A DNA stretch of 51,725 nt. Origin: Deltaproteobacteria bacterium. GTDB taxonomy: Bacteria; Desulfobacterota; Desulfobacteria; Desulfobacterales; Desulfobacteraceae. The notes under the pieces were generated by a model that did not search any database, was not told the origin of the DNA, and saw only the letters and a list, made by a program, of their open reading frames with translations. Shown here in pieces: positions 2,097 to 27,604 of this stretch. Where the stretch lies: contig JAQIBP010000075.1 of the NCBI GenBank assembly GCA_027858995.1, forward strand, positions 1 through 51,725, written 5' to 3'. The translations under genes and the position numbers were made by a program. The number at the start of each line of letters is the position of its first letter. Position 1 is the first letter of the stretch.

Positions 2097-3855
2097 GTAA
2101 TTATTCAGCAAAAAAAAATGCATAAAAAGTCATTTTTTACTTGACAAGGGTTTTTGTGAAAAATTGCTTTTTTGAGAAGCAATTCAAGACTGTTTGTTAC
2201 AAAGGGATTGCGAGCTACAATAGCCATTTTATCAGTGCTTAAGTAAAGCAGTGTAGCGTGGCAGAGCCAAAAATTTAGAATGTGTTAAAATCCAACCTCA
2301 ATCGAAAAATTGAGCCCTCAAAACCTGTGTTATAATAACTTCATTTAGAAAGCATTGAGGGAATAAATGAAGTTAGAAACAATAGATATTGACAAGACCA
2401 TTGAAAGCACAAGGAAATCATTGGATGAGGATCCAAATGTATCTCCTGCTTTAAAAAGCTCTATGGAACTTTTGATGGTGTTGATAACCTTATTGCTCAA
2501 TCGGCTGGGGCTCAATAGTAGTAATAGCAGCAAACCTCCATCGTCAGACCCGAACCGCAATAAGAAAAAGAAAAAGCCAGGTAAAAAAAGACCTGGTGGT
2601 CAAAAAGGGCATAATGGAACAACCCTGAAAAAAGTCACCAATCCTGATGTTATCAAAGAAATACCTGTCGATAAATCAAATTTACCCAAAGGTGAATATA
2701 AAGATATCGGTTATGAATCCAGACAAGTTATTGATATTGACATCTCACGGCTTGTAACAGAATATCGGGCTCAAGTGCTTGAAGATAGCAATGGTAAACA
2801 ATACACAGCACCATTCCCCAACAATGTTGGCCGCCCTGTTCAGTATGGTGATAGTGTTAAGGTTCATGCTGTTTATATGTCTCAATATCAGTTGATACCA
2901 TATAATCGTATTGAAGAAAACTTTCAGGACCAGGTAGGAATCCCGATAAGCAGTGGCTCTATTTATAATTTCAACAAAGACGTCTATGAAAGACTTGAAA
3001 TTTTTGAAGAAGTTGTAAAATCAAAGCTGATAGAATCCGGGCTTTGTCATGCAGATGAGACAGGTATTAATATTAACGGTAAAAGACGCTGGCTTCATTG
3101 TGTATCCAATAATCTATGGACATATTATCTGCCTCACGAAAAAAGAGGTTTTGATGCTATGGAGACCATGGACGTTCTTCCTGATTTTACAGGCGTTCTT
3201 TGTCATGATCATTGGAAACCTTACTTTAAACTCAAATGTCTGCATGCATTGTGCAACGCTCATCATTTAAGAGAACTGGAAAGAGCCTGGGAACAGGATA
3301 AACAAGAATGGGCAAACGATATAAGAAAACTCTTATTGCAAATCAATAAAGAAGTAGAAGATGCCGGTGGGGACTTAAATGAAGCAGACTCCATAAAATA
3401 TCGACAACAATACCGGAATTTGCTGGAAAAAGGTCAAAAAGAGTGTCCTCCCCCGGATAAAAGCCAACGAAAAGGTAAACGCGGACGTTTAAAACGTTCC
3501 AAGTCAAGGAATCTTCTTGAACGGCTGGTGGGTTATGAAAATGAAACCCTGCGGTTCATGGATGACAAAAAAGTCCCATTCAGTAATAACCTTGGAGAAA
3601 ATGACATCAGAATGACCAAAGTCCAGCAAAAGATATCAGGCTGCTTTCGCTCCATGAGAGGAGCTCAGTTTTTCTGCAGGATACGCAGCTATCTTTCTAC
3701 ATGTAAAAAACATAATGTCAGAGCAAGTGAAGCACTCCATCTATTATTTGAAGATAAATTACCCGAATTCTTAAATGGGTAATTTTCTGATTGAAAAAAT
3801 ACGTAAATTCTTTATATAATCAAACAAGCCTATTTAATATTGGCTGAATAGTTAC
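2097..3855 (+). mobile_element. Complete IS66-type insertion sequence, 1759 bp, single-gene (ISBst12-like) layout
   Basis: The left end is GTAATTATTCAGC. The right end, read inward on the minus strand from 3855, is GTAACTATTCAGC, matching at 12 of 13 positions. Perfect 8-bp direct repeats flank it. It carries only a tnpC-type transposase, without the tnpA and tnpB partners of larger IS66 elements. The 270 bp before the transposase is a leader with no other gene. The intact ends, exact duplication and full-length gene suggest a recent, possibly active insertion. Confidence 0.9.
2367..3782 (+). CDS. IS66-family transposase (TnpC type)
   Basis: The 471-residue DDE transposase catalyses movement of the surrounding element. 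It has an N-terminal coiled-coil/helical part with the family signature NSSNSSKPPSSD (about 50-61), a basic GKKRPGGQKGH segment (72-82), then the catalytic core. Candidate catalytic residues are D230 (HADETG), D281 (CHDHWKPY) and E411 (NNLGEND). The C-terminus is full length for the ISBst12-like subgroup. No frameshift or stop is visible. It is the only gene of the element. Confidence 0.93.
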   Translation: MKLETIDIDKTIESTRKSLDEDPNVSPALKSSMELLMVLITLLLNRLGLNSSNSSKPPSSDPNRNKKKKKPGKKRPGGQKGHNGTTLKKVTNPDVIKEIPVDKSNLPKGEYKDIGYESRQVIDIDISRLVTEYRAQVLEDSNGKQYTAPFPNNVGRPVQYGDSVKVHAVYMSQYQLIPYNRIEENFQDQVGIPISSGSIYNFNKDVYERLEIFEEVVKSKLIESGLCHADETGININGKRRWLHCVSNNLWTYYLPHEKRGFDAMETMDVLPDFTGVLCHDHWKPYFKLKCLHALCNAHHLRELERAWEQDKQEWANDIRKLLLQINKEVEDAGGDLNEADSIKYRQQYRNLLEKGQKECPPPDKSQRKGKRGRLKRSKSRNLLERLVGYENETLRFMDDKKVPFSNNLGENDIRMTKVQQKISGCFRSMRGAQFFCRIRSYLSTCKKHNVRASEALHLLFEDKLPEFLNG

Positions 3856-24627: not shown

Positions 24628-25665
24628 TTATAATCTTTCAAAGGCGCATAATATTAATTTTTCTGTTGTATCCCACGATATACACTCATCAGTAATTGAA
24701 ACACCATATTTAAGCTTTCCTGAAGTTTTTGAAAATTTCTGATTGCCCTCGAATAGATTGCTTTCGAGCATCATCCCAATTATGCTGGAATTACTGTCAA
24801 TACGCTGATCCAGCACACTTTTAAATACAAAGGACTGTCCTTTGTGTCTTTGCCCTGAGTTGTCATGGGAGCAGTCAATTAGAATTGTGTTGTTCAATTT
24901 TTTCTTATCAAGCTTGTCCATGGCTTTTCTGATTGAAAGAGGATCATAGTTTGGATGTACTCCTCCTCTTAATACAATATGGCCAAAAGCATTTCCACTT
25001 GTAGTTACCATGGCAGAATAACCTTCAGGGTCTATTCCAAGAAAATGCTGGGGTGATTTTGCAGCCAGCATTGCATTGACAGCAGAATCCAGGTTTCCGC
25101 CTGTAGTGTTTTTAAATCCAACCGGCATTGAAAGTCCGCTTGCCATCTCCCGATGAGTTTGAGATTCTGTTGTCCTTGCTCCAATTGCAACCCATGATAA
25201 AAGACCTGCAATATATTGAGGGGTTATAGGGTCAAGAATTTCAGTGGCACAAGGCATCCCCAGGCGGTTAATTTCTATCAAAAGTGATCTTGCTTTTTCT
25301 AATCCTTTATTAATATTGTAGGATGAATCAAGAGAAGGATCATTTATTAATCCTTTCCAGCCAACAGTTGTTCTGGGCTTTTCAAAATATACCCGCATAA
25401 CAATATTTATTTTTTCTTTTACCCTGTTTTTTAATTGCTTCATCCTCTCTGCATATTCAAGTGCAGCATCAGTATCATGAATGGAGCAGGGCCCTGCAAT
25501 AACAAGAAGACGATTATCTTTTTTTGTCAGAATGTTTTCAATGTCGTGACGTCCATTAATTACTGTCTTAACCGCATCATCAGGTATTGGCAGTTTATTT
25601 TTAATATCTGCAGGTGAAATAAGCGGTTTAAACGATTTTACATTTACATCATAGGTCTGTTTCAT
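24628..25665 (-). CDS. aroG: 3-deoxy-7-phosphoheptulonate synthase (DAHP synthase, class I alpha)
   Basis: The enzyme condenses PEP and erythrose 4-phosphate, committing carbon to aromatic amino acids. Motifs: VIAGPCSIHD (about 76-85), RVYFEKPRTTVGWKGLINDP, GARTTESQTHREMASGLSMPVGFKN and LIDCSHDNSGQRHK. I chose ATG 25665 because AAGGAG precedes it; an upstream ATG at 25683 lies before that site. It matches the AroF/G/H family, but the isozyme specificity is not certain. The leader directly upstream carries a Phe/Tyr-rich attenuator, so repression by phenylalanyl/tyrosyl-tRNA charging is predicted. Confidence 0.93.
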   Translation of the reverse strand: MKQTYDVNVKSFKPLISPADIKNKLPIPDDAVKTVINGRHDIENILTKKDNRLLVIAGPCSIHDTDAALEYAERMKQLKNRVKEKINIVMRVYFEKPRTTVGWKGLINDPSLDSSYNINKGLEKARSLLIEINRLGMPCATEILDPITPQYIAGLLSWVAIGARTTESQTHREMASGLSMPVGFKNTTGGNLDSAVNAMLAAKSPQHFLGIDPEGYSAMVTTSGNAFGHIVLRGGVHPNYDPLSIRKAMDKLDKKKLNNTILIDCSHDNSGQRHKGQSFVFKSVLDQRIDSNSSIIGMMLESNLFEGNQKFSKTSGKLKYGVSITDECISWDTTEKLILCAFERL

Positions 25666-25714: not shown

Positions 25715-25746
25715 AAAAAGCCGCAGGCTTTCTACCTGCGGCTTTT
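25715..25746 (-). terminator. Rho-independent terminator (attenuator stem 3:4) before aroG
   Basis: On the minus strand the arms AAAAGCCGCAGG (25746-25735) and CCTGCGGCTTTT (25727-25716) pair perfectly over 12 bp around a 7-base loop, ending in a T run. An alternative pairing exists: TCTGCCTG (25779-25772) with CAGGTAGA (25738-25731), 8 bp with one G-U. It uses the distal part of the first arm and would stop the terminator from forming. Confidence 0.9.
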
Positions 25747-25760
25747 AATTAGTTTAAATA

Positions 25761-25838
25761 TCAGCGCAAAACAGGCAGATCAGCAGTATAATAATAAAAA
25801 GTATAAAAATTTGATCTGTCTATTTTGTAAAAATTCAT
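25761..25838 (-). CDS. Phe/Tyr-rich leader peptide of the aroG attenuator, 25 residues
   Basis: The ATG at 25838 follows AAAGGAAAAACC, a good ribosome site. Eight of 25 codons are aromatic: F3, Y4, F11, Y12, F14, Y15, Y16, Y17, with codons 11-17 reading F Y T F Y Y Y. The stop is TGA at 25763-25761. Segment CAGATCA (25818-25812), just before the aromatic run, pairs with TGATCTG (25782-25776). A ribosome stalled on the Tyr codons would cover this first segment and free the second to form the antiterminator. This is the classical pheA/trp-type design. Confidence 0.85.
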   Translation of the reverse strand: MNFYKIDRSNFYTFYYYTADLPVLR

Positions 25839-25906
25839 GGTTTTTCCTTTAAGATGCAACCTATAGATTAAAATTTTATAAGTCAAGGGAATAATTTAAA
25901 GACAGT

Positions 25907-27604
25907 TTATTTTGTCCTGTTTTTTGCCATCTTTGCCCAAGCATCTCTCATTGTTACTGTTCTGTTAAAAACAGGACTGCTATTTGCAACATCTTTCATT
26001 TTTGAATCCATATTATCCCGGCAGAAATACCCAACTCTTTCAAACTGAAACACCTTTTCAGGTTTTGCATTGGCAAGGCTTTTCTCTAATTTGCATGATT
26101 CAATTTCCTGTAGAGATTCAGGATTTAAGTTTTCAATAAAATCCTGTTTATCTTTTTCAGGATCCTCATCCCTGAAAAGTCTGTCATAAAGCATCATTTT
26201 TGCATCAATGCAGTCTTTTGCATTAACCCAGTGGATAGTGCCTTTAACCTTTCTGCCGTCGGTCGCATTGCCACCTCGTGTTTCAGGATCATAGGTGCAG
26301 ATCAATTGAGTTACATTGCCGTTTTCATCTTTGATAATGTCCTTGCAGGTAACAAGATAGGCATATCTTAATCTTACTTCCCTTCCAGGTCCCAGGCGGA
26401 AGAATTTTTTTGGAGGGTCTTCCATGAAATCATCTCGTTCCACATAGATTTCTCTGGAAAAGGTAATTGTTCTTGTTCCCATCTCCTCTTTTTGTGGATG
26501 GTTTTTGGCAATAAGTTCTTCGGTTTTATCTTCAGGATAATTTTCAATAATAATTTTTAAAGGCTTTAAAACTCCCATGACTCTTGGAGCTTTTTCATTC
26601 AAGTCATTTCGAAGACAGGATTCGAGAAGTCCCATATCAATACGGCTCACTTTTTTGGAAACACCAATGGCATCACAAAAGTTTCTAATGGATTCAGGTG
26701 TATATCCTCTTCTTTTCATGCCTTCAAGTGTTGGCAGCCTTGGATCATCCCAGCCTTGCACATGATTGTCATCAACAAGTCTTTGAAGTTTTCTTTTGCT
26801 TAAAATTGTATAGTTGATATTCATTCTGGCAAATTCTATCTGCTGTGGATGGCATGGAGTTTCAAGCTCATCAAGGGTCCAGTCATACAAAGGTCTGTGA
26901 TCCTCAAATTCAAGGGAGCACAGAGAGTGGGTAATACCTTCAATGGAATCTGAAAGGCAGTGGGTAAAATCATACATGGGATAGATACACCACTTATCTC
27001 CGGTTCTTGGATGGACCGCTTTTTTAACTCTGTAAATTATGGGATCGCGAAGGTTTATATTGGGTGATTTCATATCAATTTTTGCCCTTAAAGTGTGTTC
27101 ACCTTCATCAAACTCACCGTTTTTCATTCTGGCAAAGAGAGCTAAATTCTCCTCCAATGATCTCTCCCTGTATGGGCTGTCTTTTCCCTTTTCAGTCAGA
27201 GTTCCTCTATATTCCCTGATATCATCGCCCTTAAGACTGCACACATAGGCCTTGTTTTTTTTAATGAGTTCAACTGCAAAATCATATAGATCATCAAAAT
27301 AATCAGATGCAAAAAGAGGATTTTCAAATTCAAAGCCAAGCCACTTAATGCTTGCTTTAATAGAATCAATATAGGTCTGTTTTTCCTTTGCAGGATTTGA
27401 ATCATCAAATCTTAAATTGCATCTGCCGTTAAATTTTCTGGCCATATTAAAATTGAGGCAGATGGATTTTGCATGTCCGATATGGAGATATCCATTTGGT
27501 TCCGGCGGAAAACGGGTATTGACCCTTCCACTGTTTTTATTGTTTTTTATATCTTCTCTTATAATTGATTCTATAAAATGTCCTTTTGTGTTTTCCTTGT
27601 CCAT
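25907..27604 (-). CDS. glnS: Glutaminyl-tRNA synthetase
   Basis: The class I synthetase has 565 residues, as usual for bacterial GlnRS. The N-terminal [17 protein letters not shown] (about 27-43) holds the HIGH motif. The second signature is ILSKRKL (about 268-274). The C-terminal beta-barrel anticodon-binding region follows from about 340. Direct glutaminylation by GlnS means that tRNA(Gln) need not be charged by the amidotransferase route. Its stop is about 70 bp before the aroG leader ORF, so some aroG transcripts could come from read-through. Confidence 0.96.

Follow-up and report, generated by a model that had tools for sequence, protein, structure and literature searches.

Is transcription of the aroG-type DAHP synthase gene in this Desulfobacteraceae genome set by a small leader peptide that reads the supply of aromatic amino acids? 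In the window, which is the whole stretch of 51,725 nucleotides that we analyzed, the gene (type I-alpha; 24628..25665, minus strand) follows glnS (27604-25907, minus strand and thus the same strand as the leader). An original prediction, made from the letters alone, placed a Phe/Tyr transcription attenuator between the two. What it observed in the sequence is confirmed almost to the base.

The leader ORF has the 25 codons ascribed to it, running on the minus strand from the ATG at 25838 to a TGA that ends at 25761, and by direct reading it encodes MNFYKIDRSNFYTFYYYTADLPVLR. Its eight aromatic codons comprise three for Phe (codons 3, 11 and 14) and five for Tyr (codons 4, 12, 15, 16 and 17). 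The putative control codons, F Y T F Y Y Y at codons 11-17 (25788..25808, minus strand), form an aromatic run that is conserved in relatives. When the window's upstream region was shuffled by mononucleotides 1000 times, a small ORF as dense in aromatic codons arose in a single case. The expected ribosome site is a Shine-Dalgarno-like AAAGGA (25845..25850, minus strand), 6 nt ahead of the ATG; GGA or GGAG stands at approximately the equivalent position in most of the relatives' loci whose upstream sequence was inspected. Further upstream lies the probable promoter of the leader transcript (25858..25886, minus strand), with TTGACT at 25886-25881 on the -35 side and an uncertain -10 element, TAGGTT at 25863-25858 if the spacer is 17. 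Of the 38 loci inspected, the window among them, 35 have TTGAC about 45-75 nt ahead of the leader; the exceptions are L010, L084 and L126. A scan of the window with a consensus promoter returned only an overlapping, weaker match at 25900-25873.

The pairings attributed to the leader are also present. Segment 1 (25812..25827, minus strand), defined by alignment and fold as the 5' arm of the 1:2 hairpin, adjoins the aromatic codons as claimed, and these codons sit between it and segment 2 (25767..25782, minus strand), which pairing counts and folds identify as the partner of either segment 1 or segment 3. Within 1:2, CAGATCA at 25818-25812 pairs with TGATCTG at 25782-25776, and in the fold the stem is longer than first reported: CAAAATAG-A-CAGATCA pairs with TGATCTG-C-CTGTTTTG, giving 15 pairs with one A.C mismatch. 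The core of segment 3, CAGGTAGA (25731..25738, minus strand; from pairing counts and fold), can serve either as the antiterminator partner of segment 2, through the 2:3 pairing of 25779-25772 with 25738-25731 (one G.U), or as part of the terminator. The 3:4 intrinsic terminator hairpin (25716..25746, minus strand) is the perfect 12-bp stem with a T run that had been described; it was recovered by pairing counts, by folding and by a terminator scan, which adds one G-U pair, and its T-rich tail extends to about 25708. Folding of all 128 nt of the leader gives -37.1 kcal/mol (z -6.2), a value that none of 200 shuffles equaled, and the antiterminator (2:3) region folded alone gives -14.6 kcal/mol (z -2.4; 3 of 200 shuffles equally good). 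All parts of an attenuator are present: a leader ORF with its ribosome site, control codons, a 1:2 hairpin, an exclusive 2:3 alternative and a 3:4 terminator.

The downstream gene encodes the DAHP synthase that had been named. It is of the aroF/G/H type, scoring 462.8 bits with TIGR00034 against a cut-off of 173.2, and is the sole match of its type in the genome. We discarded the possibility that the genome has no other DAHP synthase on finding two enzymes of type I-beta, which makes three DAHP synthases in all. One I-beta enzyme is followed by a 380-aa ORF that by eye is aroB-like. The other I-beta enzyme, whose 622-aa frame matches prephenate dehydratase as well, lies at 115-1983 of L236 (contig C127); 114 nt of contig precede it, too short an upstream stretch to judge a leader. 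The trpE operon of the same genome is preceded by a Trp leader, MNKEFTNNNLTTWSGWWWLCGSKMC, with a terminator identified by eye (L237, contig C1, about 214-400), so this organism does use such devices. Elsewhere in the window, the ORFs at 1086-1949 and 2367-3782 resemble, by eye, insertion-sequence transposases.

To follow the leader across relatives, the nearest named of which are Desulfobacula, we examined 131 aroG loci. All but one belong to the window's family and order (L001-L130, of which L001 is the window itself); the other, L152, is on a contig labeled SAR324. Relatives keep the leader, which was the comparison proposed with the prediction, in that an aromatic-dense ORF and a terminator precede aroG in 125 of the 131 loci, some of these leaders having atypical ends or frames. 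Among the six loci without it is L129, an additional aroG beside one that has the leader. Within the genus the typical leader is MNFCLTDRFYFYFRYYFYTGLPVLR, and in the order it takes the form xxSGR-aromatic run-TGLPGVR. When scored simply as a small ORF with at least 5 F/Y/W in 8 residues before aroG, the leader is found in 124 of the 130 family and order loci (window included), whereas among 54 aroG loci of bacteria further away (L155-L210 minus L159 and L165) just 1 has it. Of 20 loci from other families of the phylum (L211-L230), 6 have a leader of this kind. The SAR324-labeled contig carries a Desulfobacterales-type leader together with aroG and is either misbinned or transferred, and on a contig labeled Akkermansia (L184) an aromatic-dense small ORF (YFFWFLWFLTW) stands before aroG.

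We then aligned 114 of the 125 leaders (alignment A1), omitting 11 that had an atypical frame or stop or were duplicates. The conserved segments read approximately CAGRCAG (segment 1), GGTCTGCCTG (segment 2), GCCGCRGGCAGACC (segment 3) and GCCTGCGGCTTTTTT (segment 4); segments 1 and 3 are near copies, and each is therefore able to pair with segment 2. Across the 114 leaders, 83.2% of 792 cells are paired in the 1:2 helix, 86.2% of 1024 in 2:3 and 93.5% of 1474 in 3:4, with 22, 46 and 67 both-side changes, respectively. For each helix, none of 500 shuffles reached the observed paired percentage, both-side cell count or covariation score, in tests that the relatedness of the sequences inflates. 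An example of matched change is the replacement of TCTGCC by TCCGCC in segment 2 together with that of GGCAGA by GGCGGA in segment 3, as in L110, L113, L117 and L120. The alternative stems whose conservation had been proposed as a check are thus maintained by compensatory changes, strongly for 2:3 and 3:4 and more weakly for 1:2.

The difference between the helices emerged when registers were slid. For 2:3 and 3:4, none of the six slid registers came up to the given one on any of the five measures, although the number of covarying pairs in 2:3 was equaled by 135 of 500 shuffles. The 1:2 register slid by +2, in contrast, exceeded the true one in covarying pairs (6 versus 5), both-side cells (30 versus 22) and covariation score (0.117 versus 0.109); further pair types tied at 13 in three slid registers, and 48 of 500 shuffles equaled the number of covarying pairs. 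It is therefore less covariation than the share of cells paired (83.2%, compared with 41.3% or less once the register is slid) that supports 1:2. Pair 29:98 of this helix is unformed in 61 of the 114 leaders. The window retains the conserved 1:2 register and extends it by the CAGATCA-TGATCTG stem.

Two further pairings appear in subsets of loci. The end of the leader ORF may form an inner helix with the spacer, for which support is weak: runs of at least 5 Watson-Crick pairs occur in 20 of 51 loci of the order (11% in shuffles) and in 14 of 74 of the family (7% in shuffles). A second terminator-like hairpin lies between the first terminator and aroG in 27 of the 125 leaders (among them L061, L079, L084, L085, L091, L101, L121-L123 and L127) and is absent from the window copy. 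In 24 of these 27, its 5' arm can form at least 8 contiguous pairs with segment 4, as against 6% of shuffled arms. The second hairpin could act as a relay (1:2, 3:4 and 5:6 versus 2:3 and 4:5) or could be a plain duplicated terminator, for which the pairing would look alike.

Which amino acids would such a leader read? The aromatic runs of all 125 leaders contain Tyr, 118 contain Phe and 52 contain Trp, with means of 4.7 Tyr and 2.9 Phe per run. Seven runs have Tyr without Phe (Tyr-only runs such as YAYYYVYYY, in L031, L046, L047, L050, L053, L071 and L074), and none has Phe without Tyr. Synonymous codons are mixed in the runs (TAT 504, TAC 87, TTT 309, TTC 59). Because Phe and Tyr swap while the aromatic run persists, and because synonymous codons are mixed, the pattern is as expected if the codons themselves are read. 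The 278 other codons of the runs include TGG 54 times, CGG 18, AGG 15 and GGG 12, and the Trp codon often occupies a central site that reads CGG, AGG or GGG in other leaders; a GG constraint at this codon, rather than Trp sensing, is possible. The window copy has no Trp codon; many relatives carry one. These frequencies (Tyr always, Phe usually, Trp in fewer than half) suggest that the signal of the leader family is general aromatic shortage, with Tyr foremost.

The occurrence of the leader before aroG in near as opposed to distant relatives, the covariation, the mixing of codons and the places at which a model of the leader matches (below) all argue that the window element is very probably a ribosome-mediated transcription attenuator, which would couple aroG transcription to the supply of charged tRNA-Tyr and tRNA-Phe. 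With Tyr and Phe plentiful, the ribosome would reach the stop codon and cover segment 2, the 3:4 terminator would form, and aroG would not be transcribed. When either amino acid is short, the ribosome would stall at codons 11-17 and keep segment 1 unpaired, allowing 2:3 to form, the terminator to be blocked and aroG to be transcribed. If the leader is not translated at all, 1:2 and 3:4 should both form and transcription should stop. Codons 11-14 appear best placed for masking segment 1; a ribosome at codons 16-17, given the usual ribosome footprint, may reach into segment 2 and so be too close for an ideal stall.

In many loci the C-terminus of the peptide shows good conservation, reading GLPVLR or GLPGVR up to the stop codon, and we considered whether the peptide itself could be the sensor, its nascent chain arresting near the stop in response to a free aromatic amino acid, in the manner of TnaC. 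The conserved end, however, encodes segment 2, which is constrained to pair with segments 1 and 3, and other leaders end in LPVLF or LPGLP, so the residues vary. Moreover, Phe, Tyr and Trp interchange within the run, which a specific peptide-ligand pocket would hardly allow. The inner helix with the spacer accounts for the conserved peptide end in part only. On balance, we regard arrest of this kind as highly unlikely.

The stems might alternatively sense something else, as a riboswitch, a T-box or a protein-bound antiterminator, with the ORF acting as a modulator only. Such a reading draws on a likeness of the leader to the Rfam trpB motif (RF04312), which its authors view as a riboswitch candidate or possibly an attenuator (PMC11109978). 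This likeness is below threshold, at 30.9 bits (E 0.016) against a gathering score of 59; the window has no match to any Rfam 15 family at gathering score, and the 18 Rfam matches that the leader region gives up to E 5 include no T-box. In addition, the aromatic codons themselves make up the loop that separates segments 1 and 2, and inspection of alignment A1 by eye revealed no conserved unpaired core outside the ORF. This alternative strikes us as still less probable than peptide arrest. Twenty more loci, the trp locus and 19 that carry leaders, likewise yielded no leader family at gathering score; the sole Rfam match among them was a cobalamin riboswitch (RF00174, 96 bits) at 1184-1350 of L315.

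That the hairpin is merely the terminator of glnS, which ends at 25907 on the same strand, and the small ORF incidental, is scarcely credible: the hairpin starts 160 nt past glnS, behind the conserved TTGAC and Shine-Dalgarno sequence, it persists before aroG where the upstream gene is different (L240), and leader coding and pairing are both conserved. All three alternatives (glnS terminator, riboswitch or T-box, and TnaC-like peptide sensor) were rejected on the evidence of conservation, position and Rfam comparison.

We asked where else the leader occurs, using a covariance model, R1, built from aroG leaders alone (114 aligned sequences). In the window genome, the aroG leader is the sole R1 match under E 0.2 (101.2 bits, E 4.1e-14), a match that arises by construction, as the window's own leader was among the 114 used for training; a second match, at E 0.3, is merely a terminator-like hairpin. 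Within the window's class, R1 matches 198 of 241 genomes at E 0.001, compared with only 99 genomes that have a strong aroG place. Classification covered the best 150 listed R1 places in the class, of which 76 lie before aroG, 65 before aroA', 7 before pheA and 2 are unassignable owing to a contig end or masked bases; thus 148 of these 150 stand before aromatic-pathway genes. Of the aroA' leaders, 64 lie directly before the gene; the remaining one, at a contig end, was assigned by eye. Six pheA places were assigned by tblastn, and the seventh precedes a chorismate mutase-like ORF with an adjoining aroE match.

The aroA' gene encodes 2-amino-3,7-dideoxy-D-threo-hept-6-ulosonate synthase, an archaeal-type entry enzyme unrelated to aroG. 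The assignment agrees with the score of the L241 aroA' protein (367.3 bits with TIGR01949, cut-off 299.45), and in the aroA' loci retrieved whole the next gene is 3-dehydroquinate synthase II. By lists that leave out aroG matches weaker than about 1e-80 and two aroG fragments, and that take from among the aroA' matches listed those of at least 68% identity plus one 83% fragment (leaving out those of 64% or less), aroG is present in 99 class genomes, pathway-type aroA' in 101 and both in 3 (G058, G059 and G299). When all listed aroA' matches at E 1e-30 or better are taken, the overlap with aroG rises by hand recount to at least 16 genomes; 12 of the 13 additional genomes have matches of 1e-33 to 1e-48, which are probably other aldolases, and the remaining one, G168, has a match at 5.6e-97. 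The two entry enzymes are seldom in one genome. In G058 and G059, leaders stand before both aroG and aroA'.

In the phylum as a whole, R1 matches 78 of 247 genomes at E 0.001 or better. Of the 30 phylum loci given, we read the 24 new ones, two of which (L307 and L311) are still in the window's order; their R1 scores are lower than in the class. The next gene is aroG in 4, aroA' in 4, a type I-beta DAHP synthase in 7 and aroK-aroC in 3, one of the last having masked bases. In the remaining loci it is an ADP-forming acetate-CoA ligase (2), a LivK-like binding protein (1) or no nameable gene (3). These calls were made by tblastn for aroG, aroA' and I-beta, by scores below the family cut-offs for the shikimate kinase (149.2 bits versus 204) and the CoA ligase (incomplete; 391.3 versus 567), and by eye for the rest. 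At L300 and L301, Tyr-rich leaders of the same design lie about 300 nt before the ADP-forming acetate-CoA ligase-like gene, perhaps an aryl-acid CoA ligase, and at L321 an aromatic leader precedes an ORF resembling a LivK-type ABC binding protein, possibly part of an aromatic amino-acid importer. One weak R1 match (G151 C48, L327; E 3.5e-4) is an Ile/Val-rich leader, MKSIISVIIISLGLIIVVGVLPCYGRAG, followed by a terminator and an ilvD-like gene. Weak R1 matches can therefore be other attenuators and need individual reading.

The leader family of Desulfobacterota thus stands before several different aromatic-pathway operons, and the window copy appears to belong to this family, which would read aromatic amino acids generally. 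We moderately favor a reading in which the leader is, for much of the phylum, a portable sensor of aromatic shortage that was kept or re-acquired when an unrelated enzyme took over the entry step. Copies of it would also have been placed before pheA and aroK-aroC, and the codon run would have drifted between Tyr only, Tyr plus Phe, and Tyr plus Phe plus Trp. The replaced entry enzymes concerned are the aroG-type DAHP synthase, aroA'-aroB' and, in other classes, the type I-beta DAHP synthase.

Ribosome-mediated attenuation, which the prediction invoked as an established design, is indeed classical. In enteric bacteria, the pheA leader reads Phe only, and aroF is chiefly under TyrR. The former (Rfam Phe_leader, RF01859) is the same device applied to an aromatic amino acid, yet it matches the window at only 22.4 bits against a gathering score of 55. 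For E. coli aroF-tyrA, attenuation sensing Tyr-tRNA was hypothesized (Camakaris 1980, as cited in PMC2659441 and PMC8632094), and the 5' region there is a different one (PMC8632094). In the uORFC-13-1 motif of Acholeplasma, the DAHP synthase gene aroF follows a terminator and a uORF whose U run codes for Phe (PMC8632094); by its description in that source, the motif is set apart from our family by its 24 representatives from one genus and environmental sequences and by reading Phe only. In Corynebacterium glutamicum, the aroR leader, with a Phe-Tyr-Phe peptide, exerts ribosome-mediated attenuation of the DAHP synthase gene aroF (PMC11802643, PMC4046766) and is described as responding to Phe limitation, not to Tyr availability (PMC11802643). 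Compared by description, aroR belongs to another phylum and has one FYF triplet, whereas the window family has a run of about 10 codons in which Tyr is constant.

A further case is the aroA'-aroB'-pheA-aroF-tyrA-trp supraoperon of Desulfovibrio vulgaris, for which a predicted attenuator from the Merino database is listed (PMC1173090, Table 7). This is likewise an attenuator before aroA'-aroB', in an organism that the paper counts as a delta proteobacterium; by its description in that paper, the entry is a listing, with no leader peptide, codons or wider family given. The main text of PMC2965389 makes no mention of Desulfo, aroF, aroG, DAHP or tyrosine. Within the open-access literature searched, we found no description of the leader family, its Tyr-led specificity or its reuse, and no paper describing a Tyr-reading ribosome attenuator in Desulfobacterota. 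By the same searches, ribosome attenuators that read Tyr have hardly been documented at all, although the general type of attenuator is known.

On its own, the window element is a well-built instance of an attenuator type already known. What makes it interesting is the Tyr-led, mixed aromatic sensing and the reuse of the leader before entry enzymes of one pathway that are unrelated to each other. The leader family would be an additional regulatory RNA, without an Rfam match in the loci scanned, and would mark aromatic operons in most of the sampled genomes of a large, thinly studied class. If the portable-sensor reading is true, the regulator would outlive the enzyme that it regulates. With one leader standing before non-homologous entry enzymes, the way in which cis-regulation follows enzyme replacement becomes testable.
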